From positions 1 through 58,551 of the forward strand of contig CALUKU010000018.1 in assembly GCA_944321295.1 (NCBI GenBank): a stretch of DNA of 58,551 nucleotides. Reading direction: 5' to 3'. This document shows, one piece after another, positions 1,637-55,903 of this stretch. The notes beneath the pieces were generated by a model, which saw only the letters and a program-made list of their open reading frames with translations, did no database searches and had not been told where the DNA came from. The DNA is from an uncultured Prevotella sp. (GTDB taxonomy: Bacteria; Bacteroidota; Bacteroidia; Bacteroidales; Bacteroidaceae). The position numbers and the translations under genes are program-made. Positions within the stretch are counted from its first letter, which is position 1; each line of letters begins with the position of its first letter.

Positions 1637-1715
1637 AAAGATGGCCTTTCAGGCTGCAAAAGGTAAGCTTTAAGACGACAAAAGGCCGCCTTTCGCAACA
1701 CGAAAGGCGGCCTTT
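1637..1715. repeat. Four-unit 22-bp palindrome array, copy 1 (gap 1401-1760)
   Basis: Thirteen-base cores start at 1637, 1659, 1681 and 1703, exactly 22 bp apart. The last two are AAAGGCCGCCTTT and AAAGGCGGCCTTT and, with flanks, form a perfect 17-bp stem around a 5-base loop (CAACA). The array lies between the end of the hybrid regulator and the SusC promoter. The rest of the gap has the SusC promoter and no gene I can support. Confidence 0.9.
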
Positions 1716-1760
1716 TGCAGCACAATGCGTAAACGCCTGTACGCCAGGCGGTTGCCGACG

Positions 1761-4535
1761 TCAGCCTCGGGCCTCGCCGGGCTGCACGCCGAAATGGTCC
1801 TTAAAGCACTTTGAGAAGTATGAGGGCGACGAGAAACCCACTTCGTATGAAATCTCTGAAACGGTCTTGTCGGTCGTCTTCAGCAGGTGCTCGGCCTGCT
1901 TGAGGCGCGTCACGCGGATAATCTCTACGGGCGACTGGCCCGTGAGCTGCTTCACCTTGCGGTAAAGCTGCACGCGGCTAAGGCCGAGAGCTGAGCTTAA
2001 CGTTTCAACGCTGAGTGCCGAGTCGCCCATGCGCTCGTCTACGGCCTGCCTGAAGTCGGCCATGAAGCGGCTGTCGGCGTCGCTCACCGTAGTGTCCGCA
2101 ACGTCGTCGCCCGGCGCCTCGGCGTAGATGTACTTCAAGCGCTTACGGTTCTCAAGAAGATTACGCACGCGCGCAAGCAGCACCTTACTCGAGAAGGGCT
2201 TGGTGATATAAGCGTCGGCGCCGCAGTCGTAACCCTCGGCGCGCTGGTTCTCATAGGCGCGCGACGTGAGCAGCACCACCGGCACGTGGCTCGTAGCGGT
2301 GGCCTCCTTGACGCGGCGGCACATCTCGAGTCCGTCCATGACGGGCATGAGCACGTCGGTCACAATCAGGTCGGGCACGTCGGCCAAGGCGGCCTCGAGG
2401 CCCTCCTTTCCGTCGACGGCCTGGCGCACGTCGTAGCTTCCGGCAAGGATGGATGCCACATACTGCCTCACCTCGGCGTTGTCGTCGACGACAAGCACCA
2501 TAGGCCTTTGCTCCCCTCCGTCGCCTTCGGCGCCCTCGGCGGCGTCAAGGCCGCCGGCCTCATCAGCCACGGCAGCCGTCAGCACGGTAGCGTCGGCGCC
2601 GCTTCCGGCGGCTATGCTCTCGTCGACGGCCGAGCTGTCACCCACCACGTCGGCCGTTATGGTGAGGCTCGGCAGCACTACCGTGAACTCAGAGCCTTCG
2701 CCCTCGGCGCTCTTCACCGACACCCTGCCGCCGTGAAGCTCGGCAAACGCCTTTACTACGGCAAGGCCTACGCCCGTGCCTCCGCCTCCGTCCTTCACCC
2801 GGTAGAACTTATCGAAAATGCGGTCTACGTCGTTCTTTGACATGCCAATGCCCGTGTCGGCCACCGTTATCACGGCTCCGCCGTCGCCGGCGGCCACCTT
2901 GACGGTCACCGTCCCGCCCTTGCGGTTATACTTCAGAGCGTTGCTTATCAGGTTGTAGCAGATGCGTTCCACCTTATTATAATCGGCGTTCATCGTCAGG
3001 CTGTCTACGGCGTCAAGCCGTATCGTGACGTCGCGCGTGGCGGCCAGCGGCCTGAAGTCGTCAACCCACATCCTTACGGCCGCGGCAACGTCGAAGTTGC
3101 TGACCGTCAGGCGCATCTTGCCGTTCTGTATCTTGCGCAGGTCGAGTATCTCGCCTACAAGCCTCAGCAGCATGGCGGCGTTGCGCCTGACCATGCATAG
3201 CATCGAACGCTGCTGCGCGGTAAGGTTGTCGTCGGCGAGTATGCGCTCAACCGGGTCGGCGATAAGCGTCAGCGGGGTGCGCAGGTCGTGGCTAAGGTCG
3301 GTGAAGAACGACAGCTTCACCTCGGCCGCGCGGCGCTCCATGCGCCGCTTCACCATGGCCGTACGGTAGAGCGCGGCCAGCGCCACGATGACGAGCAGCA
3401 GTATGATTATGCACAATATGCCGTAAACGCGCTGGTGGCTGTACTGCGTGAAGAACACGTCAACACGGCCGTGGAGCATCTCCAGCTGGCCGCTGATGTG
3501 GCTCATCTCCTCGGCCTGCATCAGCATAGTTTCGGCGTTGTCCTTCGTCACGAGGGCGGCCTTCATGTAGTTGTCGCGCTCGTAGGGCCGGCCTTCAAGT
3601 ATGTTGAGGGCCAGCTGCATTACTATGTCGCCGCGGGTGGGGTAAATGTACGAGGCCTCAAGCACTCCGTCGCGCACCAGGCGTATGCCTCCGTCGTCGC
3701 CGGGCAGGGCGTCAATGCCCACGAAGCGTATCTTCCCTTCAAGCCCGAAGCGCTTGGCGGCCTGCCAGGCGCCGAGCGCCATGCGGTCGTTTTGTGCGAA
3801 AATGTAATCGGGAACAATGCCTTTGGCGAACATTCCGGCCGCCACGTCGTCGCCGCTTTGCTGCGTCCAGTCGCCGCTCAAGTCGGCAACCAGGCTTATG
3901 CCGGGATGGCTCTTGACGGCCGACACGAAGCCGCGGTGGCGCTCGATGGCCGGCGACGAACCTTTAAGTCCGCGTATCTCGGCCACCGTGCCCTTGCCTT
4001 CGAGGCGCGCGGCGACGTACTCTCCGATGGTGTGTCCTATCTTTTCGTTGTCTGCTCCGACGAACGCCGTGTACTTGCCCGAGCCTGTCTTGCGGTCGAA
4101 AAGGATTACGGGTATGCCGCTGTCGTAGGCCCGGTCGATGGCCGGAGTTACCGTATTCATCTGGTTAGGCGAAACTACGAGCAGGTCGACGCCCTCGTCG
4201 GTGAAGGCGTTTATCTGCCCCGTCTGCTGCCGGTCGTTGTCGTTGGCCGACACGACGCGCAGCTCTACGTTGTCATGCAGGTAGGTGGCGTCGCGCAACT
4301 CGCCGTTAAGCTTCTCGCGCCAGTTGTCCTCGCTGCACTGCGAAACGCCTATAACGTAGGTTTTCTTGCTTTGATTGCAAGCAAGAAAACAAGCAGACAA
4401 GCAGACAAGTGACAAGCAGACAAGGAGATTTGTTTTAGCAAACAAACGGCGAGAAGACAAACAGACAAGGAGATTTGGCTTGTGGATTAACTCTACAAGC
4501 GTATGTTTTATGCTTTCAGAAATTCTTTTTTTCAT
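1761..4535 (-). CDS. Hybrid two-component system sensor/response regulator with periplasmic sugar-binding sensor domain
   Basis: One 924-residue protein combining sensor and regulator. Residues about 58-320 match a ribose/fructose-type periplasmic binding protein (VIGVSQCSEDNWR, SPNQMNTVTPAIDRAYDSG, FAQNDRMALGAWQAA, FVGIDALPGDDGG). A membrane helix follows at about 371-390. The histidine kinase has its phospho-acceptor His416 in LSHDLRTPL, an N box near 528-536 and G boxes near 559 and 587. The receiver has Asp727 in VTDVLMPVMDG. The AraC-type DNA-binding domain covers about 825-924. A binding-protein sensor instead of the usual beta-propeller resembles the fructose-sensing regulator BT1754 of Bacteroides thetaiotaomicron, so the SusC next door may serve fructose-containing glycans (inference). 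The N-terminus is odd: an octamer DNA repeat encodes two copies of NLLVCLS at residues 21-27 and 36-42 within the signal/anchor segment. Confidence 0.93.
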   Translation of the reverse strand: MKKRISESIKHTLVELIHKPNLLVCLSSRRLFAKTNLLVCLSLVCLSACFLACNQSKKTYVIGVSQCSEDNWREKLNGELRDATYLHDNVELRVVSANDNDRQQTGQINAFTDEGVDLLVVSPNQMNTVTPAIDRAYDSGIPVILFDRKTGSGKYTAFVGADNEKIGHTIGEYVAARLEGKGTVAEIRGLKGSSPAIERHRGFVSAVKSHPGISLVADLSGDWTQQSGDDVAAGMFAKGIVPDYIFAQNDRMALGAWQAAKRFGLEGKIRFVGIDALPGDDGGIRLVRDGVLEASYIYPTRGDIVMQLALNILEGRPYERDNYMKAALVTKDNAETMLMQAEEMSHISGQLEMLHGRVDVFFTQYSHQRVYGILCIIILLLVIVALAALYRTAMVKRRMERRAAEVKLSFFTDLSHDLRTPLTLIADPVERILADDNLTAQQRSMLCMVRRNAAMLLRLVGEILDLRKIQNGKMRLTVSNFDVAAAVRMWVDDFRPLAATRDVTIRLDAVDSLTMNADYNKVERICYNLISNALKYNRKGGTVTVKVAAGDGGAVITVADTGIGMSKNDVDRIFDKFYRVKDGGGGTGVGLAVVKAFAELHGGRVSVKSAEGEGSEFTVVLPSLTITADVVGDSSAVDESIAAGSGADATVLTAAVADEAGGLDAAEGAEGDGGEQRPMVLVVDDNAEVRQYVASILAGSYDVRQAVDGKEGLEAALADVPDLIVTDVLMPVMDGLEMCRRVKEATATSHVPVVLLTSRAYENQRAEGYDCGADAYITKPFSSKVLLARVRNLLENRKRLKYIYAEAPGDDVADTTVSDADSRFMADFRQAVDERMGDSALSVETLSSALGLSRVQLYRKVKQLTGQSPVEIIRVTRLKQAEHLLKTTDKTVSEISYEVGFSSPSYFSKCFKDHFGVQPGEARG

Positions 4536-4580
4536 GGCAAATCTCCTTGTCTGCTTGTCTGCTCGTCACTTGTCTGCTTG
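4391..4580. repeat. Inverted repeat built from CAAGCAGA-type octamers spanning the start of the hybrid regulator gene
   Basis: The plus strand has octamer copies of CAAGCAGA/CAAGGAGA at 4391-4432 and a partial copy at 4454-4475. Their complement lies at 4539-4580. The arms are about 40 bp with one octamer shifted between them. The right arm supplies AAGGAG on the minus strand, 8 nt before the ATG at 4535, as the Shine-Dalgarno sequence. In the mRNA this sequence could pair with either downstream copy inside the coding region. A related octamer tract lies at 55675-55760. Confidence 0.8.
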
Positions 4581-4598
4581 GGCGAAGCCCACTATCTA

Positions 4599-6086
4599 CT
4601 AAGGCAGCCGCCACAAGCTGCCGTCCTTTGTGTCGTTAACCTCGAAGCCGGCTGCGGCCAGCTCGTCGCGTATGCGGTCGCTCGTGGCCCAGTCTTTGGC
4701 GGCTTTGGCCTTGGCGCGCAGGTCGAGCACCATGTCGACAACCTTGCCGAAGGCTTCCTCGCGCTGCTTGCTTCCGCCGGCGTCGGCCTCTTTCAGGCCG
4801 AGTATGTCGAGCGCGAAGAGGCGCATCACGCCGTCGAGCTCGTCGAGGTCGGCGGCAGAAATCCGCGCCTTGTGGTCGAGTATAATATTAATAAGGTGGC
4901 AAGCCTCGAAGAGGTTGCTTATGACTATGGGCGTCTGCATGTCGTCGTTCATGGCGTCATAGCACTTCCGGCGCAGGGCGGCGGTGAAGTCTTTCACCTG
5001 CGCGTCGCTCTCGGCCGAGGGCTTGATGCGGTTCAGGTCGGCTATGCCCGTCATCAGGCGTGCCAGTCCCTTCTCGCTGGCCTGCAGGGCTTCGTCGGAG
5101 AAGTCGACGGTGCCGCGGTAGTGGGCGGAGAGTATGAAGAAGCGTATCGTCATGGGCGAGTAGGCCTTTGACAGGAGCTTGTGCTCTCCCTTGAAGAACT
5201 GCTCGAGCGTAATGAAGTTGCCGAGGCTCTTGCCCATCTTCTGCCCGTTGATGGTTATCATGTTGTTGTGCATCCAGTATTTCACCATCTGGCTGCCCTG
5301 CGAGGCCACGGCCTGGGCTATCTCGCACTCGTGGTGGGGGAAGACGAGGTCCATTCCGCCGCCGTGTATGTCGAAATGCTCGCCCAGATACTTCCTGCCC
5401 ATCGCCGTACATTCGCAATGCCAGCCGGGGAAGCCGTCGCTCCAGGGGCTCGGCCAGCGCATGATGTGCTCGGGCTGGGCCTTCTTCCAGAGGGCGAAGT
5501 CGGCCTGGTTGCGCTTCTCTCCCACTCCGTCGAGCTGTCGGCTGGCGTCCTTCACGTCGTCGAGGTTGCGGCCTGAGAGTATGCCGTAACGGTGGTCTTT
5601 GTTGTATTTCGCCGTGTCGAAGTATATGCTTCCGTTGCTCTCGTAGGCGTAGCCGTTGGCCAGTATCTCCTTTACGAGCTGCTCCTGCTCGATGATGTGG
5701 CCAGTGGCGTGCGGCTCGATGCTTGGCGGCAGCACGTTGAGGGCGGCCATGGCGTCGTGGTAGCGGTTGGTGTAATACTGCGCTATCTCCATCGGCTCGA
5801 GCTGTTCGAGGCGCGCCTTCTTCTCTATCTTGTCCTCGCCCTCGTCGGCGTCGTGCTCAAGATGGCCCACGTCGGTGATGTTGCGCACGTACCTTACCTT
5901 ATAGCCGAGATGGCGCAGGTAGCGGAAGAGCACGTCGAAGGTTATCGCGGGGCGGGCGTGGCCGAGGTGCGGGTCGCCGTAGACGGTGGGTCCGCAGACG
6001 TACATGCCTACGTTGGGGGCGTGGAGCGGCTCGAAGCGCTCCTTCGTCCTGGTAAGCGTATTGTAGATTAAAAAGTTCTGTTCCAT
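4599..6086 (-). CDS. cysS: Cysteinyl-tRNA synthetase
   Basis: Charges tRNA-Cys with cysteine in the cytoplasm. The 495-residue protein has the class I signature HLGH at residues 40-43, the KMSKS-equivalent KMGKS at 283-287, and the expected zinc ligands Cys31 (MYVCGPTVY), Cys224 (GWHCE), His251 and Glu255 (HHECE), plus [11 protein letters not shown]. The length is slightly above the 461 of the E. coli enzyme. The start at MEQNFLIYN agrees with homologues. The hybrid regulator begins 63 bp downstream on the same strand, so read-through is possible. Transcription starts from a promoter within a duplicated 66-bp leader repeat at 6167-6329. Confidence 0.97.
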
Positions 6087-6166
6087 GTGTTTCTAAGTTT
6101 ATCTTATATGAAAAAGGCGTAGCCGGCAAGCACCGTCGCCGCGCCGTTAAGCCTGTCATCTGATTT

Positions 6167-6321
6167 GCAGAGCTAACGCAAACGAGAGGAAAGAGAACTT
6201 GTTCTCAGTTTCCCGAGTGCAGCTTAGCTTATGCAAAGCTAACGCAAACGAGAGGAAAGAGAACTTGTTCTCAGTTTCCCGAGTGCAGCTTAGCTTATGC
6301 AAAGATAATGCAAACGAGCGG
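6167..6321 (-). repeat. Tandem 66-bp promoter/leader repeat upstream of cysS
   Basis: Two nearly identical 66-bp units lie at 6167-6232 and 6233-6298, with the beginning of a third at 6299-6321. On the minus strand each unit contains TGCACTCGGG, the palindromic GAGAACAAGTTCTC, and ends in a TAKCTTTG box. The units would lie in the 5' leader of the cysS transcript. A single divergent relative with the same order (TATCTTTG, TGCACTCGGG, a palindrome, then a second TATCTTT) sits in the leader of the M20 gene at 12103-12175. Together with the array at 6411-6489 it fills most of the 615-bp gap between cysS and pta. Confidence 0.85.
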
Positions 6322-6329
6322 TATTTCAA
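6300..6329 (-). promoter_or_regulatory. Promoter of cysS
   Basis: On the minus strand TTG (6329-6327) is followed after 19 bp by TATCTTTG (6307-6300), an ideal Bacteroidetes -33/-7 pair. The predicted transcript carries both 66-bp leader repeats before the cysS start at 6086. Confidence 0.65.
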
Positions 6330-6410
6330 AATAATGAAAAGTTAAATTCAACATTTTCATACGTCCACCGACTATTAAGCGCCGCGCCGCGCGTGGGCGG
6401 CCGCAACGCA

Positions 6411-6489
6411 AGAGGCGGCCTTTCGGCCTGCAAAAGGTCACCTTTTAGCGCGCAAAAGGCGGCCTTTGGGAAGGCAAAAGGTTACCTTT
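6411..6489. repeat. Four-unit 22-bp palindrome array, copy 2
   Basis: Cores start at 6411, 6433, 6455 and 6477: AGAGGCGGCCTTT, AAAGGTCACCTTT, AAAGGCGGCCTTT and AAAGGTTACCTTT. The box CTGATAATGAG follows at 6499-6509. The array lies between the divergent genes cysS and pta, so it is not placed to end either transcript. Confidence 0.9.
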
Positions 6490-6645
6490 TGCAACACACT
6501 GATAATGAGGACGCTACGCAAGCCGCCACGATGAGCGCCGACAAATGCGGCCGGGCACGGGCGAAGACGGCGCCGAATTGGTTTATTTTATTCGATTTAT
6601 CGTGAAAAAAACATGACAGACAGACTCTTTTCGGATTATTTTTCC

Positions 6646-6653
6646 TAATTTTG
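6646..6653 (+). promoter_or_regulatory. -7 promoter box of pta
   Basis: TAATTTTG followed by CAAC, 49 bp before the pta ATG at 6702; an exact TAnnTTTG match. It fits transcription start near 6660. Confidence 0.6.
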
Positions 6654-6701
6654 CAACATCGGAATTACAAAAACACATATATACTTATAAACTACAAAAC
6701 T

Positions 6702-7712: not shown

Positions 7713-7721
7713 AATAAACAA

Positions 7722-8182
7722 TAGGAGTTAAGGAGTTACGTAGTAAAGGAGTTAAGACATCAGTTTATGACGCTGCGTTTTGAGGACATACTGGCTTGGC
7801 AGAAAGCTTACGACTTTGTATTACTTACATACAAGGCCCTTTCCGCTTATCCGGAAGAAGAAAAATACGGACTTCGTTCCCAGTTCCAACGTGCAGCAGT
7901 ATCAATACCAGCCAACATAGCCGAAGGCTATAAACGTATAGGTAAAGCCGACAAGTTGCATTTCCTAAATTTCGCACAAGGCAGCTTGGAGGAATGTAGA
8001 TGTTATCTGCACCTGTCAAAAGACTTGGGATACATCGAAGAAGATACTTACAGACAGCTCTACATCAGCCTTGAAGAGGCAAGCAAGCTGCTTAACGGAT
8101 ATTGCCGTGGTATCATAAACAACGCTTTCGAGAAATAAGCTATTGTCTTAACTCCTTAACTACATAACTCCTTAACTCCTTA
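7722..8182 (+). mobile_element. Intervening-sequence-like cassette with 38-bp terminal inverted repeats
   Basis: The left arm (7722-7759) and right arm (8144-8182) are inverted copies differing by one insertion and two substitutions. They are built from AGGAGTTA octamers plus the end AAGACA. Between them is only the four-helix-bundle gene at 7767-8138. The cassette splits the usual pta-ackA pair and its interior is visibly richer in A and T than the neighbours. AAATAAAC at 7712-7719 and AAATAAC near 8184-8190 could be remnants of a target duplication, but they are AT-rich and may be chance. Confidence 0.75.
7767..8138 (+). CDS. Four-helix-bundle protein of the 23S rRNA intervening-sequence (S23) family
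   Basis: The 123-residue protein matches the family first found in open frames of 23S rRNA intervening sequences, whose fold also serves as Avd, the accessory protein of diversity-generating retroelements. Recognisable segments are FEDILAWQKAYDF, LRSQFQRAAVSIPANIAEGYKR, FLNFAQGSLEECRCYL and LEEASKLLNGYCRGI, predicting four amphipathic helices. The function is unproven; nucleic-acid binding is suspected for the family. There is no reverse transcriptase or variable repeat nearby, so it is not a retroelement Avd. It starts 7 bp inside the left inverted repeat and ends 5 bp before the right one, which argues that gene and repeats travel together. Confidence 0.9.
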   Translation: MTLRFEDILAWQKAYDFVLLTYKALSAYPEEEKYGLRSQFQRAAVSIPANIAEGYKRIGKADKLHFLNFAQGSLEECRCYLHLSKDLGYIEEDTYRQLYISLEEASKLLNGYCRGIINNAFEK

Positions 8183-8197
8183 TAAATAACCTAACCT

Positions 8198-11954: not shown

Positions 11955-12033
11955 AAAGGCGGCCTTTCAGCGCGTAAAAGGTAACCTTTAAGCGTGTAAA
12001 AGACGGCCTTTTGAAAGCCGAAAGGCCGCCTTT
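11955..12033. repeat. Four-unit 22-bp palindrome array, copy 3 (gap 11773-12185)
   Basis: Cores start at 11955, 11977, 11999 and 12021 (AAAGGCGGCCTTT, AAAGGTAACCTTT, AAAGACGGCCTTT, AAAGGCCGCCTTT). A perfect palindrome TTGATAATCAA at 11912-11922 lies to the left. The array sits between divergent genes; the remainder of the gap holds the two promoters. Confidence 0.9.
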
Positions 12034-16832: not shown

Positions 16833-16911
16833 AAAGGCGGCCTTTCAGCGTGTAAAAGGTGGCCTTTTAGAGCCTGAAAGGTTACCTTTCGCAGGGTAAA
16901 AGGCGACCTTT
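16833..16911. repeat. Four-unit 22-bp palindrome array, copy 4 (gap 16366-17041)
   Basis: Cores start at 16833, 16855, 16877 and 16899. The box CTGATTTTCAG lies at 16812-16822. The 676-bp gap lies between divergent korA and ferritin. Apart from this array and the ferritin promoter I see no gene; short open frames there are low-complexity or run through the array. Confidence 0.9.
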
Positions 16912-21828: not shown

Positions 21829-21907
21829 AGAGGCGGCCTTTCGGCCTGCAAAAGGTCACCTTTCATACGACAAAAGGCCGCCTTTCGCAACGTGAAAGGC
21901 GGCCTTT
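21829..21907. repeat. Four-unit 22-bp palindrome array, copy 5
   Basis: Cores start at 21829, 21851, 21873 and 21895. The last two (AAAGGCCGCCTTT, AAAGGCGGCCTTT) form a long hairpin with loop CAACG. The box TGGCTATCAG lies at 21919-21928. The array is between two tandem minus-strand genes, just after the nucleoside kinase stop. Confidence 0.9.
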
Positions 21908-21948
21908 TGCAAAGCCTTTGGCTATCAGGCGGTTAGCGGCCTGCGGCA

Positions 21949-23610
21949 TTAGTACTTAAAGGAGCTGCCTCCGAGGAACTCGCGCAGCAGCGACGTGGGC
22001 GGCAGCTGGCGGTTGGGTATCGGGGCGATGTACTTCATGAACTTCAGCAGACGGTAGGCCTCGGCATACTCGTCGGCGTTTTCGGGCACAAGCTCGAGCA
22101 GCGGTTCGACCTGGCTTTTCAGCACGGCAAGCTCGAAGAGCAGTGCCGTGTTGAACATGGCGTCGGCGTTCTCCTGGTAAGGGAATATCCACTTGTTCTC
22201 TCCGGCGCGCACGCTGGGCCAGCGCTTGATGGTCTCGCGGGCGCTCACTCCGCGGTACTTGTAGTCGCGGATGATGCGGCGCAGCAGGCGGTTGTCGGTA
22301 GTCGGTATGTAGTTATGCGTGTCGAGGAGTATCGTAGTCAGCGCCGACGCGTAGACGCGGAACTTCTGTTCCTCGGGTATCTGCGCCGTAAGCTCGGGGT
22401 TGAGGGCGTGTATGCCCTCAACGACGAGCACCTCGTCGTCGGCCAGACGCAGGCGTCGGCCGCTCCGCTCGCTGCGCCCCGTCTGGAAGTTGTAGTGCGG
22501 AAGCTCCACCTCTTCGCCTGCGAACAGGGCGTTGAGCTGCTTGTTCAGCAGCGGGATGTTGAGCGCGTAAAGGCTCTCGTAGTCATATTCGCCGTGCTCG
22601 TCCTTGGGCGTATCCTCGCGATGCACGAAGTAGTCGTCGAGCGATATGGGCACGGGCTTGACGCCGCACGTGAGCAGCTGGATGGACAGACGCTTGCAGA
22701 AGGTGGTCTTTCCGCTTGACGACGGACCGGAGATGAGCACCATCTTCACCCCGCGGCGCGTCGAAATCATGTCGGCTATCTGCGATATCTTCTTCTCCTG
22801 CAGCGCCTCCGACACGTTGATAAGGTCGGTCGAGAGGCCGTTGTGCACGGCTTCGTTGAAGTCGCCGACGGTGCTCACGCCGAGAATTTTCTGCCAATGG
22901 TGGTGCTCCTTGAAGATGTCGAACATCTTGTCCTGCCTCACGAAGTCGCCCAGACGCGAAGGGTCGTCGCGCGAGGGGATGCGCAGCAGCATGCCGTCGT
23001 AATACTTCTCGAGGCCGAACAGGTACAGCTGGCTCGTGTTAGTGAGCAGCGTGCCGTAGTAATAGTCCTTGTATCCGTCAATCTCGTAATACGTCGTGTA
23101 TAGCCGTCCGACGCTCTTGAGCAGCTTGACCTTCGACGTCATGCCCATCTCGGTGAACATGTTTATCACCTCTTCGGTGGTGCTCTCGTGGCGGCAGATG
23201 GGCATCGCGGCGTCGATTATCTGCTGCATGCGCCGCCGCACGGCCTCGGCGTCGAACTGGGTGACGGGCCGGCCGATGTCGATGTTGCAGTAGTAGCCGT
23301 TAGACACGGGTATGTCTATCACCACCTCGGCGCCCGGCCAGAGGTCGTGCACGGCCTTGCAGAGCACGAAGAAGAGGGTGCGCGTGTAGGCGCGGGCGCC
23401 CGACGGCGACGTGACGTCAAGATACTCAAGGTCTTTATTGTGGTAGACGCGGAAGTGCAGGCCCTCCACCTTATTATTAACTTTAACGCTTAGCGGCCCA
23501 TAGTCCATTTTTAAGTCTAATTCACGAAAAACCTCAGAAAGAGTGCTTCCAATGGGAACGTTTAGCGTTTTTTTATTATTTTTGCAACGAATTTGTATCA
23601 TTTGCTTCAT
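21949..23610 (-). CDS. Nucleoside kinase: TGS/ThrRS-like N-terminus fused to a uridine kinase domain
   Basis: A 553-residue fusion. The first about 60 residues (IQIRCKNNKKTLNVPIGSTLSEVF) look like a TGS/ubiquitin-like domain, and residues about 65-250 resemble the second domain of threonyl-tRNA synthetase (RTLFFVLCKAVHDLWPG). The C-terminal half is a phosphoribulokinase/uridine kinase P-loop domain with GPSSSGKTT at 295-303, SLDDYF, DYESLYALNIPLL and EGIHALNP. Bacteroidetes genomes carry this as a conserved 'nucleoside kinase'. It would phosphorylate uridine/cytidine or a related substrate; the regulatory sense of the N-terminal part is unknown. It is divergent from the Na/Pi transporter; a possible weak -7 box (TATCTTTA) lies at 23640-23647. 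Confidence 0.87.
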   Translation of the reverse strand: MKQMIQIRCKNNKKTLNVPIGSTLSEVFRELDLKMDYGPLSVKVNNKVEGLHFRVYHNKDLEYLDVTSPSGARAYTRTLFFVLCKAVHDLWPGAEVVIDIPVSNGYYCNIDIGRPVTQFDAEAVRRRMQQIIDAAMPICRHESTTEEVINMFTEMGMTSKVKLLKSVGRLYTTYYEIDGYKDYYYGTLLTNTSQLYLFGLEKYYDGMLLRIPSRDDPSRLGDFVRQDKMFDIFKEHHHWQKILGVSTVGDFNEAVHNGLSTDLINVSEALQEKKISQIADMISTRRGVKMVLISGPSSSGKTTFCKRLSIQLLTCGVKPVPISLDDYFVHREDTPKDEHGEYDYESLYALNIPLLNKQLNALFAGEEVELPHYNFQTGRSERSGRRLRLADDEVLVVEGIHALNPELTAQIPEEQKFRVYASALTTILLDTHNYIPTTDNRLLRRIIRDYKYRGVSARETIKRWPSVRAGENKWIFPYQENADAMFNTALLFELAVLKSQVEPLLELVPENADEYAEAYRLLKFMKYIAPIPNRQLPPTSLLREFLGGSSFKY

Positions 23611-23697
23611 TTACAGCGTGTTTTTAGGTTAAGCGTTGGTAAAGATACTCCGTTTTTCCGACACCGCACAATGTTCGACAACAAATTAATTTAAAAT

Positions 23698-25392
23698 ATG
23701 TCGATTTGGATTTTTTTTAAGATTATCGGGTCATTGGCGCTCCTCATCTACGGAATGAAGGTGATGAGCGAAGCCCTGCAGAAGATGGCAGGCTCGCAGC
23801 TGCGCCACATCTTAGGCACGATGACCAAGAACCGGTTTACCGGTATGTTCACCGGAATGTTCGTAACCTCGGCCGTGCAGTCGTCGTCGGCCACAACGGT
23901 GATGACGGTTTCGTTCGTCAACGCCGGCCTCCTTACACTCGCCCAAGCCATATCCGTCATAATGGGTGCCAACATCGGCACCACGCTGACTGCCTGGATA
24001 ATGAGCTTGGGTTTTTCGTTTAACTTCATGGACGCGGTCTTCCCGGCCTTCATCGTCGGCATACTGCTCATCTACACGCGCCGCCACCGCTACGTTGGCG
24101 ACTTCCTTTTCGGCATAGCGTTCATGTTCTTCTCGCTCGCCCTGCTCAGCCAGACGGGCGACGAGATGGATCTCGGCCACAACAAGGAGCTTATCCACTT
24201 CTTCAGCACGTTCGACACGGGCAGCTACGCCACGATTATCGTGTTCCTGCTCATCGGCACCGTGCTGACGTGCATCCTGCAGTCGTCGGCCGCGCTGATG
24301 GCGATAACGATGATGTTGTGCTCGAGCGGCGTGCTGCCGATATACCTCGGAATAGCCTTAGTCATGGGAGAGAACATCGGAACGACGGCCACCGCCAACC
24401 TGGCGGCCCTCGGAGCTAACACCCAGGCACGGCGCGCCGCGCTGGCCCACCTGGTGTTCAACGTGTTCGGAGTGCTCTGGGTGCTGTGCCTGTTCTATCC
24501 GTTCGTCGACACGGTGTGCTCGCTCGTCGGCTACGACCCTGCCTCGAAGGCCATCGACCCGGCACGCCTGTCGGTGGTGCTGGCGGCGTTCCACACGGCG
24601 TTCAACGTCTGCAACACGGCCATCCTGATATGGTTCATCCCGCAGATAGAGAAGACCGTGTGCTGGCTCATCAAGCCCAAGGCAAAGGAGAGCGAGGACG
24701 AGTTCCGCCTGCGCTACATCGGCGGCGACACGATAATGAAGACCCCCGAGCTGTCGGTGCTCGAGGCGCAGAAGGAGATACAGCTCTTCGCCGAGCGCAT
24801 ACAGAGGATGTTCGGCTTCGTGCGCGAGCTGCTTAACATCAAGAACGACACGGAGTTCAACAAGCTCTTCAGCCGCATAGAGAAATACGAGAGCATAAGC
24901 GACAACATGGAGATTGAGATTGCGAAGTATCTCGACAAGGTCAGCGACGCGCACCTTAGCGACGAAACCAAGGCTAAGATACGAGCCATGCTGCGCGAGA
25001 TATCCGAGATTGAGAGCATCGGCGACAGCTGCTACAACATAGCTCGCTCGCTCAACCGCAAGATGCGCGGCAAGGAGGACTTCACCGAGAGCCAGTATGA
25101 GCACCTGCACCAGATGTTCGAGCTGACGGACGACAGCCTCACGCAGATGAACATCATGCTCTCGGGGCGCAAGGACAAGCTTGACGTAAACCGCTCGTTC
25201 AACATCGAGAACGAAATCAACAACTACCGCAACCAGCTGCGCAGCCAGAACATCAACGACGTGAGCGCCAACGAGTACACCTACGCCATCGGAACGATGT
25301 ACATGGACGTCGTTTCAGAGTGCGAGAAGCTCGGCGACTACGTAATCAACGTGGTGGAGGCGCGCATGGGCACGAGGCAGAAAGACGCCTGA
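23698..25392 (+). CDS. Na+/phosphate cotransporter (NptA/PhoU-domain family)
   Basis: A 564-residue protein. Residues about 5-320 are eight or nine membrane helices with the duplicated Na/Pi signature: QSSSATTVMT at 61-70 with GANIGTTLTAW, then LQSSAALMAITMM near 200 with GENIGTTATANLAALG. The C-terminal about 220 residues (from ELSVLEAQKEI) are a helical PhoU-like domain. Homologues import or export inorganic phosphate with sodium; the direction cannot be told. No pho genes are adjacent. It converges on ftsW across a palindrome array. Confidence 0.92.
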   Translation: MSIWIFFKIIGSLALLIYGMKVMSEALQKMAGSQLRHILGTMTKNRFTGMFTGMFVTSAVQSSSATTVMTVSFVNAGLLTLAQAISVIMGANIGTTLTAWIMSLGFSFNFMDAVFPAFIVGILLIYTRRHRYVGDFLFGIAFMFFSLALLSQTGDEMDLGHNKELIHFFSTFDTGSYATIIVFLLIGTVLTCILQSSAALMAITMMLCSSGVLPIYLGIALVMGENIGTTATANLAALGANTQARRAALAHLVFNVFGVLWVLCLFYPFVDTVCSLVGYDPASKAIDPARLSVVLAAFHTAFNVCNTAILIWFIPQIEKTVCWLIKPKAKESEDEFRLRYIGGDTIMKTPELSVLEAQKEIQLFAERIQRMFGFVRELLNIKNDTEFNKLFSRIEKYESISDNMEIEIAKYLDKVSDAHLSDETKAKIRAMLREISEIESIGDSCYNIARSLNRKMRGKEDFTESQYEHLHQMFELTDDSLTQMNIMLSGRKDKLDVNRSFNIENEINNYRNQLRSQNINDVSANEYTYAIGTMYMDVVSECEKLGDYVINVVEARMGTRQKDA

Positions 25393-25457
25393 CCCGGCTC
25401 CCGCGGCGCGGCGGTCCGCCGGCAGCCGCGCAACAGCCTGACAGCCAACGTATTACA

Positions 25458-25536
25458 AAAGGCGGCCTTTTACGATGTAAAAGGCCGCCTTTTGGCGTCT
25501 TATAGGTAACCTTTCGCACGGTGAAAGGTTACCTTT
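25458..25536. repeat. Four-unit 22-bp palindrome array, copy 6
   Basis: Cores start at 25458, 25480, 25502 and 25524. Units 1-2 form a perfect 17-bp stem with loop CGATG, and units 3-4 a second stem of about 13 bp with loop near GCACGGT. The box CTGACAGCCAAC lies at 25438-25449. This copy separates convergent genes, where two stacked hairpins could end transcription from both sides. Confidence 0.92.
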
Positions 25537-29817: not shown

Positions 29818-29896
29818 ATTCATGGCCTTTCGCCCTGTAAAAGGTAAGCTTTCGGCGGCTGAAAGGCGGCCTTTTGCAGCCTCGTTTGCCGCCTTT
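29818..29896. repeat. Four-unit 22-bp palindrome array, copy 7 (gap 29628-30123)
   Basis: Register positions are 29818, 29840, 29862 and 29884. Units 2 and 3 are intact (AAAGGTAAGCTTT, AAAGGCGGCCTTT), while 1 and 4 have decayed left halves. The box CTGATAATCAACG follows at 29907-29919. The gap lies inside the division cluster. It also holds GAAGTTA-type repeats at 29636-29660 and a CCTCCCC palindrome at 30050-30078, and no gene I can support. Confidence 0.8.
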
Positions 29897-30123
29897 TGCA
29901 AAGGCACTGATAATCAACGGGTTGCGCAGCCGTCCGCATCACCCCGCCCGTCGGGCGTATTCGGTTTATCAGGCTTATTGCCCTTATAGGCCGGATGGGC
30001 CTGACTGGCCTTATGGGCCGTATGCGCCCTTGCCGCAAAAGCAATCCATACTCCTCCCCTTGGGGAGGTCGGGAGGGGCTTTGTAGAAGGCTGCGATTGG
30101 CTTTCCGAGGGGTTTCGGGCAGG

Positions 30124-31593: not shown

Positions 31594-33756
31594 TTATATT
31601 TCCAACTTAAGCGAGCACACCTCGCCTTTCCTTATCACATGTCCCGGAGCAAGGCTCTGCTGGGTCACCTTGCCGCGCCCGCTCAGCCTTACCCTCACCC
31701 CGCGGCTCTCAAGCGCATACACAGCGTCGCGCGCTCCCATGCCCTTCACGTCGGGCACGACGCCCGAAGAGTAGGCCTTCACCTTCCTCAGGGCCACGTC
31801 GGCGCGCTGTCTTTCAGCCACGCCCCATACCGGGTTGCCCTTTGAATAGTCGCCGTCCCAGTTCTTGTTGGTAGGTATGCCGAGGCGGGTGAGCACGTAA
31901 TTCGCCGCGAACATGTCGCCGCTCTTCACGTCGGGCATTAATATCGACAGCGAGTCGCGGGCGTCTGACACGTCGAGCTTTATGCTCTGGGCCATGATTC
32001 CTTCGGCGATGTTGTGGAAAACCAAAGCGCTGAAGCCGCTCGAGGCCGGAAGTCCGGGCCTCTGTATGCACACTATGCAGCTGTAACGCGGGTTGTCGGC
32101 GGGAAAGAAGCCGACGAAGCTGAGCAGATAGTTCATCGTTCCGCTCTTATATCCTGCCGCTCCCTTCGATATCTGTGCCGTTCCCGTCTTGCCGGCCACC
32201 TTAAACGACGTAGAGCCGGCCTTCTTTCCGAGGCCCTGGCTGACAACATGCTCAAGTATGGTGGTTATCTCGCGCAGCGTCTTCTCCTTGCAGATGCGCT
32301 GCTTTATGACCTGCGGCGGGAACTCGCGGATTACCTGTCCGTCCTTCATCACGGCCTTTACGAACCTCGGGCGCATCATGGTGCCGCCGTTGGCGATGGC
32401 GTTATAGAACGTCAGCGTCGAGATTGGAGGCACCTGCGTCTCGTAACCGATGCTCATCCAGGGCAGCGCCGTCTTGCTCCAATTGACGTACTGGCCGCGC
32501 TTGTTCTTCTTAGGCATGCGTATGCGGGGCGGCGCGTAGCCTACGATGGGCAGCTTCAGGTCCTCGCGTATGCCGATGCGGTCAAGCCCCTGGACGAACT
32601 TCTCGGGGTTCTTTCCGTAATACTTGTCTATTATGCGGCTGACGCCGATGTTAGAGCTGTACTCCAACGTCTGCGGCAACGTCAGCACCTGGTAGCCGCC
32701 GCGGTGCCAGTTGTGGTCGCGCATCTTGGCCCCGTACATGTCCCAAATGCCGCTTCCGGTGTCAACGGTGTAAGTGGTGTCAACAACGCCGTCGTCAAGC
32801 GCCACCATGAGCGACGCCGTCTTAAACACCGAGCCAGGCTCGAGCAGGTCGGAAACGGCGCTGTTCTTTATCTCGTAATACTCACCGTCGGCGCACTTCG
32901 CCATGTTAACGATGGCCTTGATGTCGCCCGTCTTCACCTCCATTACCACCGCCACGCCCACGTTTCCGTTGATGAGCTTAAGCTCGTCGACGAGCGAGCG
33001 CTCGGCCAGGTCTTGTATGTTGACGTCGATGGTGGTGACGATGTCGGCGCCGTTGACGGGGTCTTGCACGGTGATGTCAAGAAACTTGTTCCTCACTTTC
33101 TGGCGGTTTATCTTGCCGACCTTGCCTCGCAGGATGGAGTCATACGACAATTCGAGGCCGAACTGGGCCGTATCCTTCGCGCCGTAAAGGTCGCCTATGG
33201 TGCGCTTTGCCAGCGAACCGAACGGGCGCTGGCGGGCGTTGAACTTCTCGAAGTGGAACCCTCCCTTGTTGGCCGACAGGTTGAAGACGGGCAGCTTCTT
33301 AACGTCGGAGAACGTGCTGTAGCTCACCCTGCGCCTCCACACGGGCCAGTGGCGGCTGCCCCGCAAGCGGCCTTCCTCCAAATGCTTCTTAAACTCGGCG
33401 GCGCTCTTCTCTGGGAATATCTCGTGCAGCCCCATGCAGATGCTGTCGACCTTAGCTTCCCAAAGCGAGTCGCGCGTCTCGTTCTCGTCGCCTCCGGCCT
33501 TGAAGTCCATGTACATGCGGTATTCGGGCAGCGAGCTGGCCATCAGTCGGCCGTCGCAACTCAGGATGTTGCCCCTTATCGGCTTTACGTCGACGCTGTC
33601 CCTCTTGAGCGTCGCAGCCACCTTCATCCAGTAGCTGCGCTTCGCCGTGGCGATGTAAGCCACCTTGAACAGCACCACCAGTCCGACTGCAAGCATGGCG
33701 TAGGCCACCACCTTGTAGCGCTTAATGATTTTCTTCCTGTCAAACATGCTACTCAT
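31594..33756 (-). CDS. ftsI: Penicillin-binding protein FtsI/PBP3-type transpeptidase with a C-terminal PASTA domain
   Basis: Septal transpeptidase of 720 residues. There is a membrane helix at about 14-36, a pedestal domain (RGNILSCDGRLMASS), and a transpeptidase domain with the nucleophile Ser309 in SVFK, the SSN motif at 367-369 and KTG at 523-525. A PASTA domain occupies about 660-720 (VVPDVKGMGARDAVYALESRG). The ATG at 33756 overlaps the ftsL-like stop by 8 nt; the ATG at 33747 is an equally good non-overlapping start. The location after the ftsL-like gene and before murE supports the division role. Confidence 0.95.
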   Translation of the reverse strand: MSSMFDRKKIIKRYKVVAYAMLAVGLVVLFKVAYIATAKRSYWMKVAATLKRDSVDVKPIRGNILSCDGRLMASSLPEYRMYMDFKAGGDENETRDSLWEAKVDSICMGLHEIFPEKSAAEFKKHLEEGRLRGSRHWPVWRRRVSYSTFSDVKKLPVFNLSANKGGFHFEKFNARQRPFGSLAKRTIGDLYGAKDTAQFGLELSYDSILRGKVGKINRQKVRNKFLDITVQDPVNGADIVTTIDVNIQDLAERSLVDELKLINGNVGVAVVMEVKTGDIKAIVNMAKCADGEYYEIKNSAVSDLLEPGSVFKTASLMVALDDGVVDTTYTVDTGSGIWDMYGAKMRDHNWHRGGYQVLTLPQTLEYSSNIGVSRIIDKYYGKNPEKFVQGLDRIGIREDLKLPIVGYAPPRIRMPKKNKRGQYVNWSKTALPWMSIGYETQVPPISTLTFYNAIANGGTMMRPRFVKAVMKDGQVIREFPPQVIKQRICKEKTLREITTILEHVVSQGLGKKAGSTSFKVAGKTGTAQISKGAAGYKSGTMNYLLSFVGFFPADNPRYSCIVCIQRPGLPASSGFSALVFHNIAEGIMAQSIKLDVSDARDSLSILMPDVKSGDMFAANYVLTRLGIPTNKNWDGDYSKGNPVWGVAERQRADVALRKVKAYSSGVVPDVKGMGARDAVYALESRGVRVRLSGRGKVTQQSLAPGHVIRKGEVCSLKLEI

Positions 33757-35977: not shown

Positions 35978-36056
35978 AAACGCGGCAAAACCACCGGTAA
36001 AAGGCGGCCTTCGCGGGGTAAAAAGGCCATCTTTCACACGGCAAAAGGCCACCTTT
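35978..36056. repeat. Four-unit 22-bp palindrome array, copy 8, one unit decayed (gap 35611-36477)
   Basis: Clear cores start at 36000, 36022 and 36044; the register position 35978 is decayed (AAACGCGGCAAAA). A TTATTATCAG box lies at 35900-35909. In the 867-bp gap between divergent mraZ and glsA I see the mraZ promoter/operator, this array and the glsA promoter; the rest looks non-coding. Confidence 0.75.
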
Positions 36057-44101: not shown

Positions 44102-44198
44102 AGCCACCGGCCTGTCAGTCACTTACGGCGGGCGAGGCGGACGGGAATTGGAGCAGACACGTCAAACTGCGCAACACTCTGACAATCAACGAAATACG

Positions 44199-44277
44199 AA
44201 AGGCGGCCTTTTGCAATGCAAAAGGCCGCCTTTTACGTTCCCGTATGCCGCCTTTCGTAGCGTGAAAGGCGGCATAC
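44199..44277. repeat. Four-unit 22-bp palindrome array, copy 9, with compensatory changes
   Basis: Cores start at 44199, 44221, 44243 and 44265. Units 1-2 form a 16-bp stem with a 3-base loop (AAT). Units 3 (GTATGCCGCCTTT) and 4 (AAAGGCGGCATAC) both depart from the consensus but remain exact complements of each other; with flanks they make a 19-bp stem. The box CTGACAATCAAC lies at 44179-44190. The array separates convergent stops. Confidence 0.92.
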
Positions 44278-50452: not shown

Positions 50453-50495
50453 ATGCTTTTATCCGATTACCGCTGATTTATTATGGAATTTTTAC

Positions 50496-50503: not shown

Positions 50504-50535
50504 TAGGGAAGATGGTTTTATAAGGAGAAGTAACA

Positions 50536-51240: not shown

Positions 51241-51301
51241 CCCGCCGCCGCACGCCGCGGCGCAACAGCTTGGTTTACAGCACGTTACCGACAGCCATGC
51301 A

Positions 51302-51380
51302 AGAGGCCGTCTTTGAGGCTGCGAAAGGCCACCTTTTACAGCCCCGAAGGCGGCCTTTTACCGTGCAATAGGCGGCCTTT
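51302..51380. repeat. Four-unit 22-bp palindrome array, copy 10
   Basis: Cores start at 51302, 51324, 51346 and 51368; units 1, 3 and 4 have one or more changes in the left half (AGAGGCCGTCTTT, GAAGGCGGCCTTT, ATAGGCGGCCTTT). A CGACAGCCATG box lies at 51289-51299. The array lies between two tandem plus-strand genes. Confidence 0.85.
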
Positions 51381-51471
51381 CATGGCGCGCCCGCAGCCCC
51401 CGCCCCGGCACGCAGGCGCGCCATGAACCTAAAAATATGGCTTTTCGCTTTTGCGTAAGCAATATTTTTCT

Positions 51472-51479
51472 TAAATTTG
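51472..51479 (+). promoter_or_regulatory. -7 promoter box of the OPT transporter gene
   Basis: TAAATTTG followed by C, 49 bp before the ATG at 51529. Confidence 0.6.
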
Positions 51480-51528
51480 CGCCATTATGTGAAAACATCC
51501 CGGACAAACAATAAACGTAAATAAAACT

Positions 51529-53514
51529 ATGGAAGACTTGGAAAAAGACGGAGTGCGGCTGCCAGACAACGCGTTCCGCGAACTTAAGGAGGGCGAGCAG
51601 TACCGCCCCGTGATGGATCCACAAAAGACTTATCCCGAAGTGAACACATGGTCGGTGACGTGGGGCCTGCTGATGGCCGTCCTCTTCTCGGCCGCCGCGG
51701 CCTACCTCGGCCTGCGCGTGGGACAGGTGTTCGAGGCCGCCATACCCATCGCCATAATAGCCGTGGGCGTGTCGACGGCCGCCAAAAGGCGCAACCCCCT
51801 CGGCGAGAACGTCATCATACAGAGCATCGGCGCCTGCTCGGGCGCCGTGGTGGCAGGCTCGATATTCACCCTGCCCGCCATCTACATACTTGAAGACAAG
51901 TATCCGGGCATGGGCGTGTCGTTCGTCGAGGTGTTCCTCAGCTCGCTGCTGGGCGGCGTCCTCGGCATACTGTTCCTCATCCCGTTCCGCAAGTATTTCG
52001 TCAGCGACATGCACGGCAAGTACCCCTTCCCCGAGGCTACGGCCACCACGCAGGTGATAGTCAGCGGCGCCAAGGGCGGCAAGCAGGCCAAGCCGTTGCT
52101 GCTGGCCGGACTGGTGGGCGGAGTGTATGACTTCATCGTGGCCACCTTCGGCTGGTGGAACGAGAACTTCACCACGCGCGTAATAGGCCTCGGCGAGCAG
52201 CTCGCCGACAAGGCCAAGCTCGTGTTCAAGGTAAACACCGGCGCCGCAGTGCTTGGCCTCGGCTTCATCATCGGCTTGAAGTACGCCCTCATCATCTGCC
52301 TCGGCTCGCTGGCGGTGTGGTGGCTCATCGTGCCGCTTATGTCGGTGTTCTTCCACGACCAGGTGCTCAACCTCTGGGACCCGTCAATCACCACGGCCGT
52401 AGGCGACATGTCGCCCGAGCAGATTTTCAACTCTTACGGCAAGTACATCGGTATCGGCGGCATAGCCATGGCCGGCATAATAGGCATAATCAACTCTTGG
52501 GGAATAATCAAGAACGCCGTTGGCCTGGCCGCGCGCGAAATGCGCGGAGGCAAGAACGACGGCCGCCAGACCAAGCGCACGCAGCGCGACATACCGTTTA
52601 AGATTATCGCCATCGGCTCGATAGCAACCATTCTGATAACCTTCATCTTCTTCTGGGCAGGCGTGATGAAGGGCAACATGCTCTTCGCCGTCGTCGGCAT
52701 ACTGCTCGTTGCGATTATAGCCTTCCTCTTCACCACCGTGGCCGCCAACGCGATAGCCATCGTAGGCAGCAACCCCGTGTCGGGCATGACGCTCATGACG
52801 CTAATCCTCGCCTCCGTGGTTATGGTGGCCGTAGGCCTCAAGGGCACGGGCGGCATGGTGGCGGCGCTCATCATGGGCGGCGTAGTATGCACGGCCCTGT
52901 CGATGGCCGGAGCCTTCGTCACCGACCTTAAGATAGGCTACTGGCTCGGCACTACGCCCAAGAAGCAGGAGACATGGAAGTTCCTCGGCACGCTGGTGTC
53001 GGCCGCAACCGTGGGCGGAGTGATGATTTTGCTCGACAAGACCTACGGCTTCTCAAGCGGACAGCTGGCCGCCCCGCAGGCCAACGCCATGGCGGCTGTC
53101 ATCGACCCGCTGATGAACGGCGTCGACGCGCCTTGGATTCTCTACGGCATCGGCGCCGTGATAGCCATCATCCTGACGCTCTGCAAGGTGCCCGCGCTTG
53201 CCTTCGCCCTCGGCATGTTCATCCCGATACAGCTCAACATCCCGCTGCTCGTGGGCGGAGCCATCAACTGGTATGTCACCACACGCTCCAAGAATCCCGA
53301 GGTTAACCAAGCCCGCGGCGAGAAAGGCACGCTCATCGCCAGCGGCTTCATTGCCGGAGGAGCGCTCATGGGAGTGCTCAGCGCGCTGCTGCGCTTCGGC
53401 GGCGTCAACCTGATGAACAACGAGTGGCTGGCCAACCCGATGTCGGAGGTGTGCGCCCTCGTGGCTTACGTGCTGCTGATTACTTACTTCATAAAGGCAA
53501 CGAAGAAAGGGTGA
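51529..53514 (+). CDS. OPT-family oligopeptide transporter
   Basis: A 661-residue membrane protein with about 16 helices, of the bacterial branch of the OPT family. Characteristic stretches are TWSVTWGLLMAVLFSAAAAYLG near residues 41-62 (two pieces), GENVIIQSIG, GKYPFPEATATTQVI and NPVSGMTLMTLILA. It should import small peptides by proton symport, fitting the peptide-handling genes at 44297-47620. The stop codon falls inside the left arm of the GGTGAGAA octamer hairpin shared with gyrB. Confidence 0.93.
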   Translation: MEDLEKDGVRLPDNAFRELKEGEQYRPVMDPQKTYPEVNTWSVTWGLLMAVLFSAAAAYLGLRVGQVFEAAIPIAIIAVGVSTAAKRRNPLGENVIIQSIGACSGAVVAGSIFTLPAIYILEDKYPGMGVSFVEVFLSSLLGGVLGILFLIPFRKYFVSDMHGKYPFPEATATTQVIVSGAKGGKQAKPLLLAGLVGGVYDFIVATFGWWNENFTTRVIGLGEQLADKAKLVFKVNTGAAVLGLGFIIGLKYALIICLGSLAVWWLIVPLMSVFFHDQVLNLWDPSITTAVGDMSPEQIFNSYGKYIGIGGIAMAGIIGIINSWGIIKNAVGLAAREMRGGKNDGRQTKRTQRDIPFKIIAIGSIATILITFIFFWAGVMKGNMLFAVVGILLVAIIAFLFTTVAANAIAIVGSNPVSGMTLMTLILASVVMVAVGLKGTGGMVAALIMGGVVCTALSMAGAFVTDLKIGYWLGTTPKKQETWKFLGTLVSAATVGGVMILLDKTYGFSSGQLAAPQANAMAAVIDPLMNGVDAPWILYGIGAVIAIILTLCKVPALAFALGMFIPIQLNIPLLVGGAINWYVTTRSKNPEVNQARGEKGTLIASGFIAGGALMGVLSALLRFGGVNLMNNEWLANPMSEVCALVAYVLLITYFIKATKKG

Positions 53515-53616
53515 GAAGGTGAGAAAGTGAGAAGGTGAGAAACAAACAAAACAAGAAGGTGAGAAAGACTGCTGCATTTCAGCATTTCTTTCTCACTTTC
53601 TCACCTTCTCACCCTT
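53507..53616. terminator. Bidirectional terminator made of GGTGAGAA octamers, second copy
   Basis: The left arm 53507-53533 and right arm 53590-53616 are perfect 27-bp complements made of GTGAGAAG words. The loop of about 56 nt contains one more copy and a small GCTGCATTTCAGC hairpin. It separates the convergent OPT and gyrB genes and matches the words of the hairpin at 10529-10625. Confidence 0.8.
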
Positions 53617-53619
53617 ACA

Positions 53620-55593
<1,974 letters not shown>

Positions 55594-55618
55594 TTTCGAG
55601 TTTATGTATAATAACGTG

Positions 55619-55626
55619 CAAAAGTA
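55619..55626 (-). promoter_or_regulatory. -7 promoter box of gyrB
   Basis: TACTTTTG followed by C on the minus strand, 25 bp before the gyrB ATG at 55593. Confidence 0.6.
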
Positions 55627-55674
55627 CTAAAAAAAAACGACGTGGCGAAATTTTAAATATTAAAAACTATTTTT

Positions 55675-55760
55675 GAGCAGACGAGCAGACAAGGGACAAG
55701 CTGACAAGAAACAAGTTACAAGCAGACGAGCAGACAAAGGACGAGCAGACAAGGGCTTTT
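55675..55760. repeat. GCAGACAAG octamer tract upstream of gyrB
   Basis: About nine imperfect copies of GAGCAGACAAG/GACAAG words in direct orientation, the same family as the inverted repeat at 4391-4580. A CACCTTCTCACCTTCCCACC tract of the GGTGAGAA family follows at 55768-55790. No inverted partner is nearby. Confidence 0.65.
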
Positions 55761-55824
55761 CTCCCCCTTTCACCTTCTCACCTTCCCACCTCTCCGTAAC
55801 CCGTTGGCTGTCAAGCGGTTTGCA

Positions 55825-55903
55825 AAAGGCCGCCTCTTGCCTTGCGAAAGGCGGCCTTTTACACGCTAAAAGGCCGCCTCTTGACGTGCAAAAGGCGGCC
55901 TTC
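55825..55903. repeat. Four-unit 22-bp palindrome array, copy 11 (gap 55594-55928)
   Basis: Cores start at 55825, 55847, 55869 and 55891. Units 1 and 3 both read AAAGGCCGCCTCT, and units 2 and 4 AAAGGCGGCCTT(T/C), so this copy shows two-unit alternation. A TTGGCTGTCAAG box lies at 55804-55815. The gap also holds the octamer tract at 55675-55790 and the gyrB promoter. Confidence 0.9.

Follow-up and report, generated by a model that had tools for sequence, protein, structure and literature searches.

Intergenic arrays of four helically phased palindromes in Prevotella, an interspersed element possibly derived from mobile DNA

We analyzed a stretch of 58,551 nucleotides from an uncultured Prevotella sp. 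(hereafter the window; positions 1 to 58,551 of contig CALUKU010000018.1), in which a short palindromic core, AAAGGNNNCCTTT, recurs between genes in arrays of four units at 22-bp steps. In our best explanation, about which confidence and doubt are evenly balanced, these arrays would be a genus-restricted, non-autonomous interspersed DNA element, derived from mobile DNA, whose working part would be a helically phased duplex array for a putative binding protein. Related genomes are designated by G and loci by L, each with a number. The explanation builds on direct observations of the geometry of the arrays, their helical phasing, intergenic placement and distribution, the complementarity of units 1 with 2 and 3 with 4 in the genome from which the window comes (the own genome) and in G197, and a mobile-looking form in one relative.

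Anatomy and placement of the arrays

A first-pass annotation of the window had listed 11 arrays with units stepping by 22 bp, all of which were borne out. At most one mismatch being allowed, the window contains 39 matches to the core, compared with a mean of 1.44 in 100 shuffles (maximum 6), and the arrays account for 38 of them; the sole core-like match elsewhere (33186-33198, AAAGGTCGCCTAT, one mismatch) lies inside a long open frame. Numbered as copies 1-11 and assigned to neither strand, the arrays occupy tandem gaps (copy 1, 1637..1715; copy 5, 21829..21907, about 41 bp past a called gene end; copy 7, 29818..29896; copy 10, 51302..51380; copy 11, 55825..55903), divergent gaps (copy 2, 6411..6489; copy 3, 11955..12033; copy 4, 16833..16911; copy 8, 35978..36056), and convergent gaps (copy 6, 25458..25536; copy 9, 44199..44277). 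The annotation had recognized all three settings correctly but had counted five divergent copies, where our simple gene caller gives four divergent, five tandem, and two convergent. Its observation that the 22-bp step is kept even in decayed copies holds: the units of copy 7, the outer ones decayed, score 6, 9, 10, and 6 of 10, and copy 8, with a decayed unit 1, reaches a total of 33 of 40.

The own genome was sampled in 40 stretches in addition to the window (855.9 kb, about a third of the genome). Four consecutive units were called an array at a total core score of at least 28 of 40, by which shorter copies are under-counted. This gave 81 arrays, compared with none in one Markov-resampled copy. 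The proposed density of about one copy per 5 kb describes the window (11 per 58.6 kb) but not the sample (81 per 855.9 kb). Across the whole genome, a two-unit pattern with up to two mismatches occurred at 356 places and its reversed control at none.

Within the lattice of the 81 arrays, core scores averaged 8.2-8.9 of 10 at the four unit places and 2.9-3.3 at the three places on either side; random places averaged 2.47. Successive cores (at least 8 of 10) within 150 bp were 22 bp apart in 173 cases, 44 bp in 13, and 21 and 17 bp in one case each; the other distances comprised 19 overlaps at distance 1 and scattered values. Units of at least 7 of 10 numbered four in 50 arrays, three in 20, two in 9, and five in 2. 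With four high places and near-background scores beyond them, the own genome supports the earlier view of a defined element with four units and a fixed 22-bp period; variable spacing and occurrence in genes, which the annotation had named as contrary outcomes, were not what we found there.

A pyrimidine-purine step stands on either side of every core (84-99% at each of the 16 places); the unit therefore reads YRAAAG-N5-CTTTYR, with five free bases after it. Within the units, inner triplets are symmetric beyond shuffles (z 3.4 to 4.3). Read in this way, an array would be a row of eight six-base half-sites (YRAAAG or CTTTYR), alternating in orientation with one every 11 bp, equivalent to four dyads every 22 bp. 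The best pair of own-genome arrays is 86% identical over 79 bp, and free spacer bases agree between arrays at a mean of 0.40 in the better of two orientations.

The flanks of own-genome arrays carry a recurrent palindrome, M1 (GTAACGCNYTGRYNRYCARNGCGTTAC). Matches at no fewer than 17 of its 24 positions lie within 60 bp of 54 of the 81 arrays, whereas the same search at random places found 7 of 728. The gap between array and M1 is 1 (28 arrays), 2 (12), or 13 (9), with five further values occurring once each; in these 49 arrays, the distance between the centres of M1 and of the last core is 21, 22, or 33 bp. Matches of at least 21/24 stand beside arrays in 10 of 11 cases and those of at least 19/24 in 32 of 43. 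Within the window, M1 accompanies copy 2 (6491..6517, gap 1), copy 6 (25430..25456, gap 1), copy 7 (29899..29925, gap 2), copy 9 (44171..44197, gap 1), and copy 11 (55796..55822, gap 2), each at 19/24, as well as copy 10 (51262..51288, gap 13, 18/24) and, weakly, copy 5 (21910..21936, gap 2, 17/24), again with no strand assigned; it was not called at copies 3 and 4.

For comparison across species, a shorter M1 core was used (9 of 10 positions; random rate 0.027 per place). Own arrays gave 25 matches at 21, 22, 32, 33, or 44 bp and four elsewhere. Among 10 arrays each, G159 showed matches at 33 bp (5), 21 bp (1), 44 bp (1), and one other distance, G197 at 22 bp (4) and 33 bp (2), and G341 at 33 bp in eight arrays and at another distance in one, these arrays being near-copies and not independent. 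The dyads are thus regularly phased, with cores every 22 bp and M1 at 21-22, 33, or 44 bp. That the 22-bp period places the palindromes on one face of the DNA had been proposed from the period itself; this geometry is supported because M1 sits at multiples of 11 bp, and the position of M1 at whole helical turns would point to duplex DNA in a protein complex.

A second flank palindrome, M2 (CATCCAACAGATTTGCGGATGAAC), occurs in register (at least 15/24) at 10 of 160 array ends, with a few more shifted, and abuts the array on the side opposite M1 at L048 10501, L036 19539, and L038 2802. The element is consequently larger than the four cores to which the annotation had confined it, comprising M1 and, at about a dozen of the 160 ends, M2-like sequence. 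A search for M1 with AAAGG as a candidate general Bacteroidales motif found it in 0 of 198 genomes but said little, as the exact pattern missed the own genome too.

Complementarity between units was measured over 13 bp. For the 81 own arrays taken without orientation, z was 6.3 for units 1:2, 6.5 for 3:4, and -1.6 for 2:3. The 49 arrays oriented by M1 gave 4.9 for 1:2, 5.2 for 3:4, -1.0 for 2:3, 0.3 for 1:4, -0.5 for 1:3, and 2.1 for 2:4, and 17 arrays of G197 agreed (1:2, z 3.6; 3:4, z 3.9; 2:3, 0.6). The earlier proposal that adjacent units pair into stems was hence right for 1:2 and 3:4 and wrong for 2:3. Compensated changes were of several kinds; in copy 9, for example, units 3 and 4 depart from the consensus in a compensated manner (GTATGCCGCCTTT and AAAGGCGGCATAC), and similar pairs are found in L136 and L140. 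All 13 Watson-Crick pairs were present in 1:2 of 12 and in 3:4 of 10 of the 81 arrays. Pairing of units is a tendency, not a rule. It may stem from selection for hairpins or cruciforms or, alternatively, from template-switch correction of quasi-palindromes.

Using the same gene caller (coding fraction 0.76), we found 80 of the 81 arrays between called genes, in divergent (28), tandem (35), and convergent (13) gaps and at stretch ends (5), in line with the first-pass description of all copies as intergenic and present in every setting. Because arrays occur in all gene orientations, simple termination does not explain them, as had been argued from the window. Neighbouring gene ends lie within 80 bp in 49% of cases, where random positions within these gaps would give 31%; gene starts are avoided (3% within 100 bp of arrays, compared with 20% for random positions). 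Tandem arrays are closer to the end of the upstream gene in 27 of 35 cases. Strictly even spacing of arrays was rejected, although the window looks regular: the coefficient of variation of the intervals between arrays is 0.71 (55 intervals).

Variation across the genus and a mobile-looking form

A general two-unit pattern matched exactly in 53 of 299 genomes of the genus, up to 261 times each and with no control matches, and at the level of the order in one of 247 genomes, which is the own genome. The AAAGG form was present in 3 of 121 genomes of the family, within one genus of 30. For one protein of the window, the nearest loci come from uncultured Prevotella or Prevotellaceae (91-93% identity) and from Marseilla massiliensis An824 (89%), which places the own genome in Prevotella in the wide sense; M. 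massiliensis An824 (L140) is a cultured commensal with arrays. A looser two-core pattern with two mismatches matched in 56 of 299 genomes of the genus, but its reversed control matched in some as well (15 times each in G318, G359, and G412), which makes low counts untrustworthy, and the exact pattern was relied on.

The centre of the core varies by species while AAAG...CTTT and the 22-bp step persist, with CTATG/CATAG in G159, AGGCT/AGCCT in G341, GGCTG/CAGCC in G132, and GTTAC in G130. The first 47 distinct arrays of G159 show no departure at any of the 32 fixed positions, while their spacers vary in sequence. The constant number of four given in the annotation stands for the own genome but not for the genus: some arrays of G410 and G203 contain five or more units, and in G056 and G092 two units remain good within a 22-bp lattice that has decayed. 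Some G203 arrays (L089, L113, L115, L116) run on along the lattice past four units, and at these loci both AAAG...CTTT and AAAC...GTTT ends occur mixed in the arrays (for example AAACCTACGCTTT).

The gap of copy 7, flanked by genes that we take to be murE and mraY, holds an array in the own genome and, in weak form, in G124; in G197, G341, G203, and G130 the gap is short and has no array. Five of 80 fetched loci carry an array within 600 bp after one gene, presumably encoding a nucleoside kinase. Arrays stand at half or fewer of the orthologous places examined. Close relatives differ in which orthologous gaps hold one, so array positions turn over even at this short distance.

G341 contains 67 four-unit arrays, and nearly all of those listed have spacers that are close to identical. 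Its aligned loci have common inverted ends (CGTGAAACA...TGTTTCACG); 20 of 22 end pairs are spaced 267-269 bp, and the other two 246 and 225 bp (23 and 44 bp shorter, and so presumably also departing from the usual unit number). Judged by this alignment, the G341 arrays appear to sit in a near-uniform, mobile-looking element of about 269 bp that resembles a miniature inverted-repeat transposable element (MITE), which supports the earlier suggestion that the element spreads as a unit. One G341 copy (L134) has the array and M1 without the inverted ends. An autonomous partner was not seen: no end pair surrounds a gene among the 81 exact matches listed (spans 225-269 bp). Profiles of own-genome arrays and their flanks contained no inverted ends, and for this genome we infer mobility in the past.

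Two further features of the window lie near copy 2. A tandem repeat (GCAAAGCTAACGCAAACGAG...) at 6166-6321, just left of the array, has many relatives in G197. A 123-aa frame (7767-8138), which we take to resemble a four-helix-bundle protein, is enclosed by inverted GGAGTTAAGGAGTTA-type repeats (7721-7766 and 8137-8195), of which dozens of matches are listed in G173.

Proposed mechanism and its rivals

In the proposed mechanism, an oligomeric DNA-binding protein would occupy the four dyads along one helix face, and the different dyad that usually follows them, M1, located 21-22 or 33 bp (rarely 44 bp) on, would be bound either by this protein or by a partner. A putative enzyme would use the complex, possibly together with 1:2 and 3:4 hairpins in single strands or cruciforms, for copying or moving the element. 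Binding would persist at old copies, keeping the cores while spacers drift, and the species-specific central bases would track the specificity of the binder by co-evolution. A more specific proposal, conceivable though doubtful, is an oligomeric Prevotella protein that would assemble on the eight alternating half-sites, spaced one helical turn apart, with four dimers per site and a partner at M1; each genome would offer it a very large number of intergenic sites, and its specificity for the central bases would shift by species together with the whole set of sites. If true, the arrays would be nucleoprotein sites of a new kind, spread chromosome-wide and perhaps domesticated from mobile DNA. 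The strict frame with a species-changing centre in gut and oral Prevotella would provide a natural experiment on protein-DNA co-evolution, the array could serve directly as bait in a search for the binder, and species such as G341 would offer a recently spread form. A bearing on the rearrangement of gene blocks in the genus is possible but only suggested.

Several observations weigh against this explanation. Neither a binder nor a moving enzyme was found, Y1_Tnp being the only family scanned for, and neither a target duplication nor an exact empty site was defined; by eye, the aligned G341 loci showed no such duplication. Eleven of the 43 M1 matches of at least 19/24 are without a called array within 120 bp, 19 arrays sampled from other species gave only three M1-like matches (21, 22, and 32 bp), and an M1-like core was absent at the one above-threshold array of G124. 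Pairing is poor in many of the arrays taken singly (4-9 of 13 bp) and weak in G124 (z 2.6 and 1.5, 8 arrays). In an unoriented test of the 47 G159 arrays, z was about 0.1 for 1:2 and 3:4 and -5.6 for 2:3 (anti-complementary), a result that would follow if arrays there read forward-reverse-reverse-reverse.

Conserved cores with near-random spacers in the own genome, the G159 arrays with their perfect fixed positions and varied spacers, the lack of strand bias, and the avoidance of gene starts would also fit a host architectural or insulator site, i.e. a platform for a nucleoid-associated, occlusion-type, or Lrp-like protein with a dimer on each palindrome and four side by side, for which a mobile origin would be secondary. 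We regard this as possible but tentative, given its patchy presence in the genus (53 of 299 genomes), the occupation of half or fewer of the orthologous places (as in the 80 loci after one gene) with the same gap varying among close relatives, and the mobile-looking form of G341. An RNA element, either a bidirectional double terminator or mRNA-stabilising hairpins, seems improbable. Hairpin-capable pairs and the proximity of tandem arrays to the upstream gene's end agree with it, but 28 of the 76 arrays with both neighbours called lie in divergent gaps, the exact 22-bp step also spans the non-pairing 2:3 spacer, M1 keeps to 11-bp multiples, and the gap of copy 7 lacks an array and is short in four relatives. 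In tandem gaps, counted in the direction of transcription, 63 G-U and 65 A-C cells occur in the 1:2 and 3:4 pairs, with M1 downstream in 10 cases and upstream in 9. RNA pairing, an option in the annotation, is disfavoured because selection on RNA would favour G-U, and there is neither an excess of G-U nor a strand preference. Searched against Rfam, the window yielded no hit that reached the gathering score. As candidates, a terminator and a structured RNA were rejected, placement showing no strand specificity and pairing no excess of G-U.

Little credence is given to a recombination site at which M1 would be the crossover dyad and the array would supply accessory sites for the shuffling of gene blocks. 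G124 breaks 5 of 6 array-bearing junctions of the window compared with 3 of 13 array-free ones (read by hand); the block between copies 5 and 6 (21829-25536) is inverted there, with M1 on opposite sides of the two, and a weak array lies at one new junction (L101 14160). This comparison is confounded, however, since the gaps with arrays are the longer ones that separate transcription units, and breaks are tolerated there; moreover, the sample is small, a missing gene was scored as a break, and no recombinase was identified. It is very unlikely that the arrays belong to the repetitive extragenic palindromic (REP) doublets known as REPINs, or to bacterial interspersed mosaic elements (BIMEs), moved by a REP-associated tyrosine (Y1) transposase (RAYT). 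They share paired inverted repeats, many intergenic copies, and species-specific sequence with these, but Y1_Tnp matched in 10 of 22 array-rich genomes (at least 10 exact matches) compared with 155 of 299 overall (read by hand), and G159 (242 matches) and G132 (79 matches) are without it. The only Y1_Tnp gene found in the own genome (L051 6259-6800, contig C2) is followed by two GTAGGGACATAATTCATTATGTCC-type palindromes in inverted orientation, and on this different palindrome and the co-occurrence counts the RAYT/REPIN candidate was rejected. The GTAGGGACATAATTCATTATGTCC-type palindromes beside this gene bear GTAG and belong to a REP-like family that is not that of the arrays.

Relation to known repeats and sites

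Dispersed sites of chromosome proteins and Lrp-type octamer sites are short palindromes found genome-wide, with dimers adjacent on one helix face. The Prevotella arrays resemble them in their dispersed short palindromes and one-face phasing, and differ in their grouping by four, their patchy presence in the genus, and a binder that is putative. With REPIN/BIME and RAYT systems (see also PubMed Central (PMC) article PMC3733652), the arrays have in common hairpin-capable inverted pairs (here the 1:2 and 3:4 complementarity), many intergenic copies, and species-specific sequence. Unlike these, they are without association to Y1 genes and keep a strict 22-bp lattice with phased M1; a GTAG or CGTC tag is absent from the column profile of own arrays and flanks. 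The G341 form resembles prokaryotic MITEs, as outlined in the available part of PMC10969869, in its length of about 269 bp, inverted ends without a gene, and many copies, whereas in the own genome neither inverted ends nor target duplications were found and cores are far more conserved than spacers.

By title or abstract, the open-licence PMC papers found in our searches contain no description of this four-palindrome element. A set of 250 palindromic candidate RNAs from human microbiomes has been reported, which might include the Prevotella element (PMC8040213). In the available passages on the BrickBuilt MITE of Porphyromonas gingivalis, a 23-nt direct unit (AGAYCATARTATCCTCTCRTRTG) lies between IS5-like ends (GAGACC...), one element has 18 full repeats, and a palindrome is not reported (PMC4596501). 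Compared by eye with these passages, the Prevotella unit is 22 bp long, palindromic, present in four units, and different in sequence, and the G341 ends (CGTGAAACA...) differ as well; identity with BrickBuilt was rejected on these differences. The Prevotella arrays represent a kind of interspersed intergenic repeat, MITE-like and without description in the open-licence literature searched, to which BrickBuilt comes nearest, being likewise found in Bacteroidales, intergenic, and built of a short tandem unit between flanks that bear inverted ends (PMC4596501).

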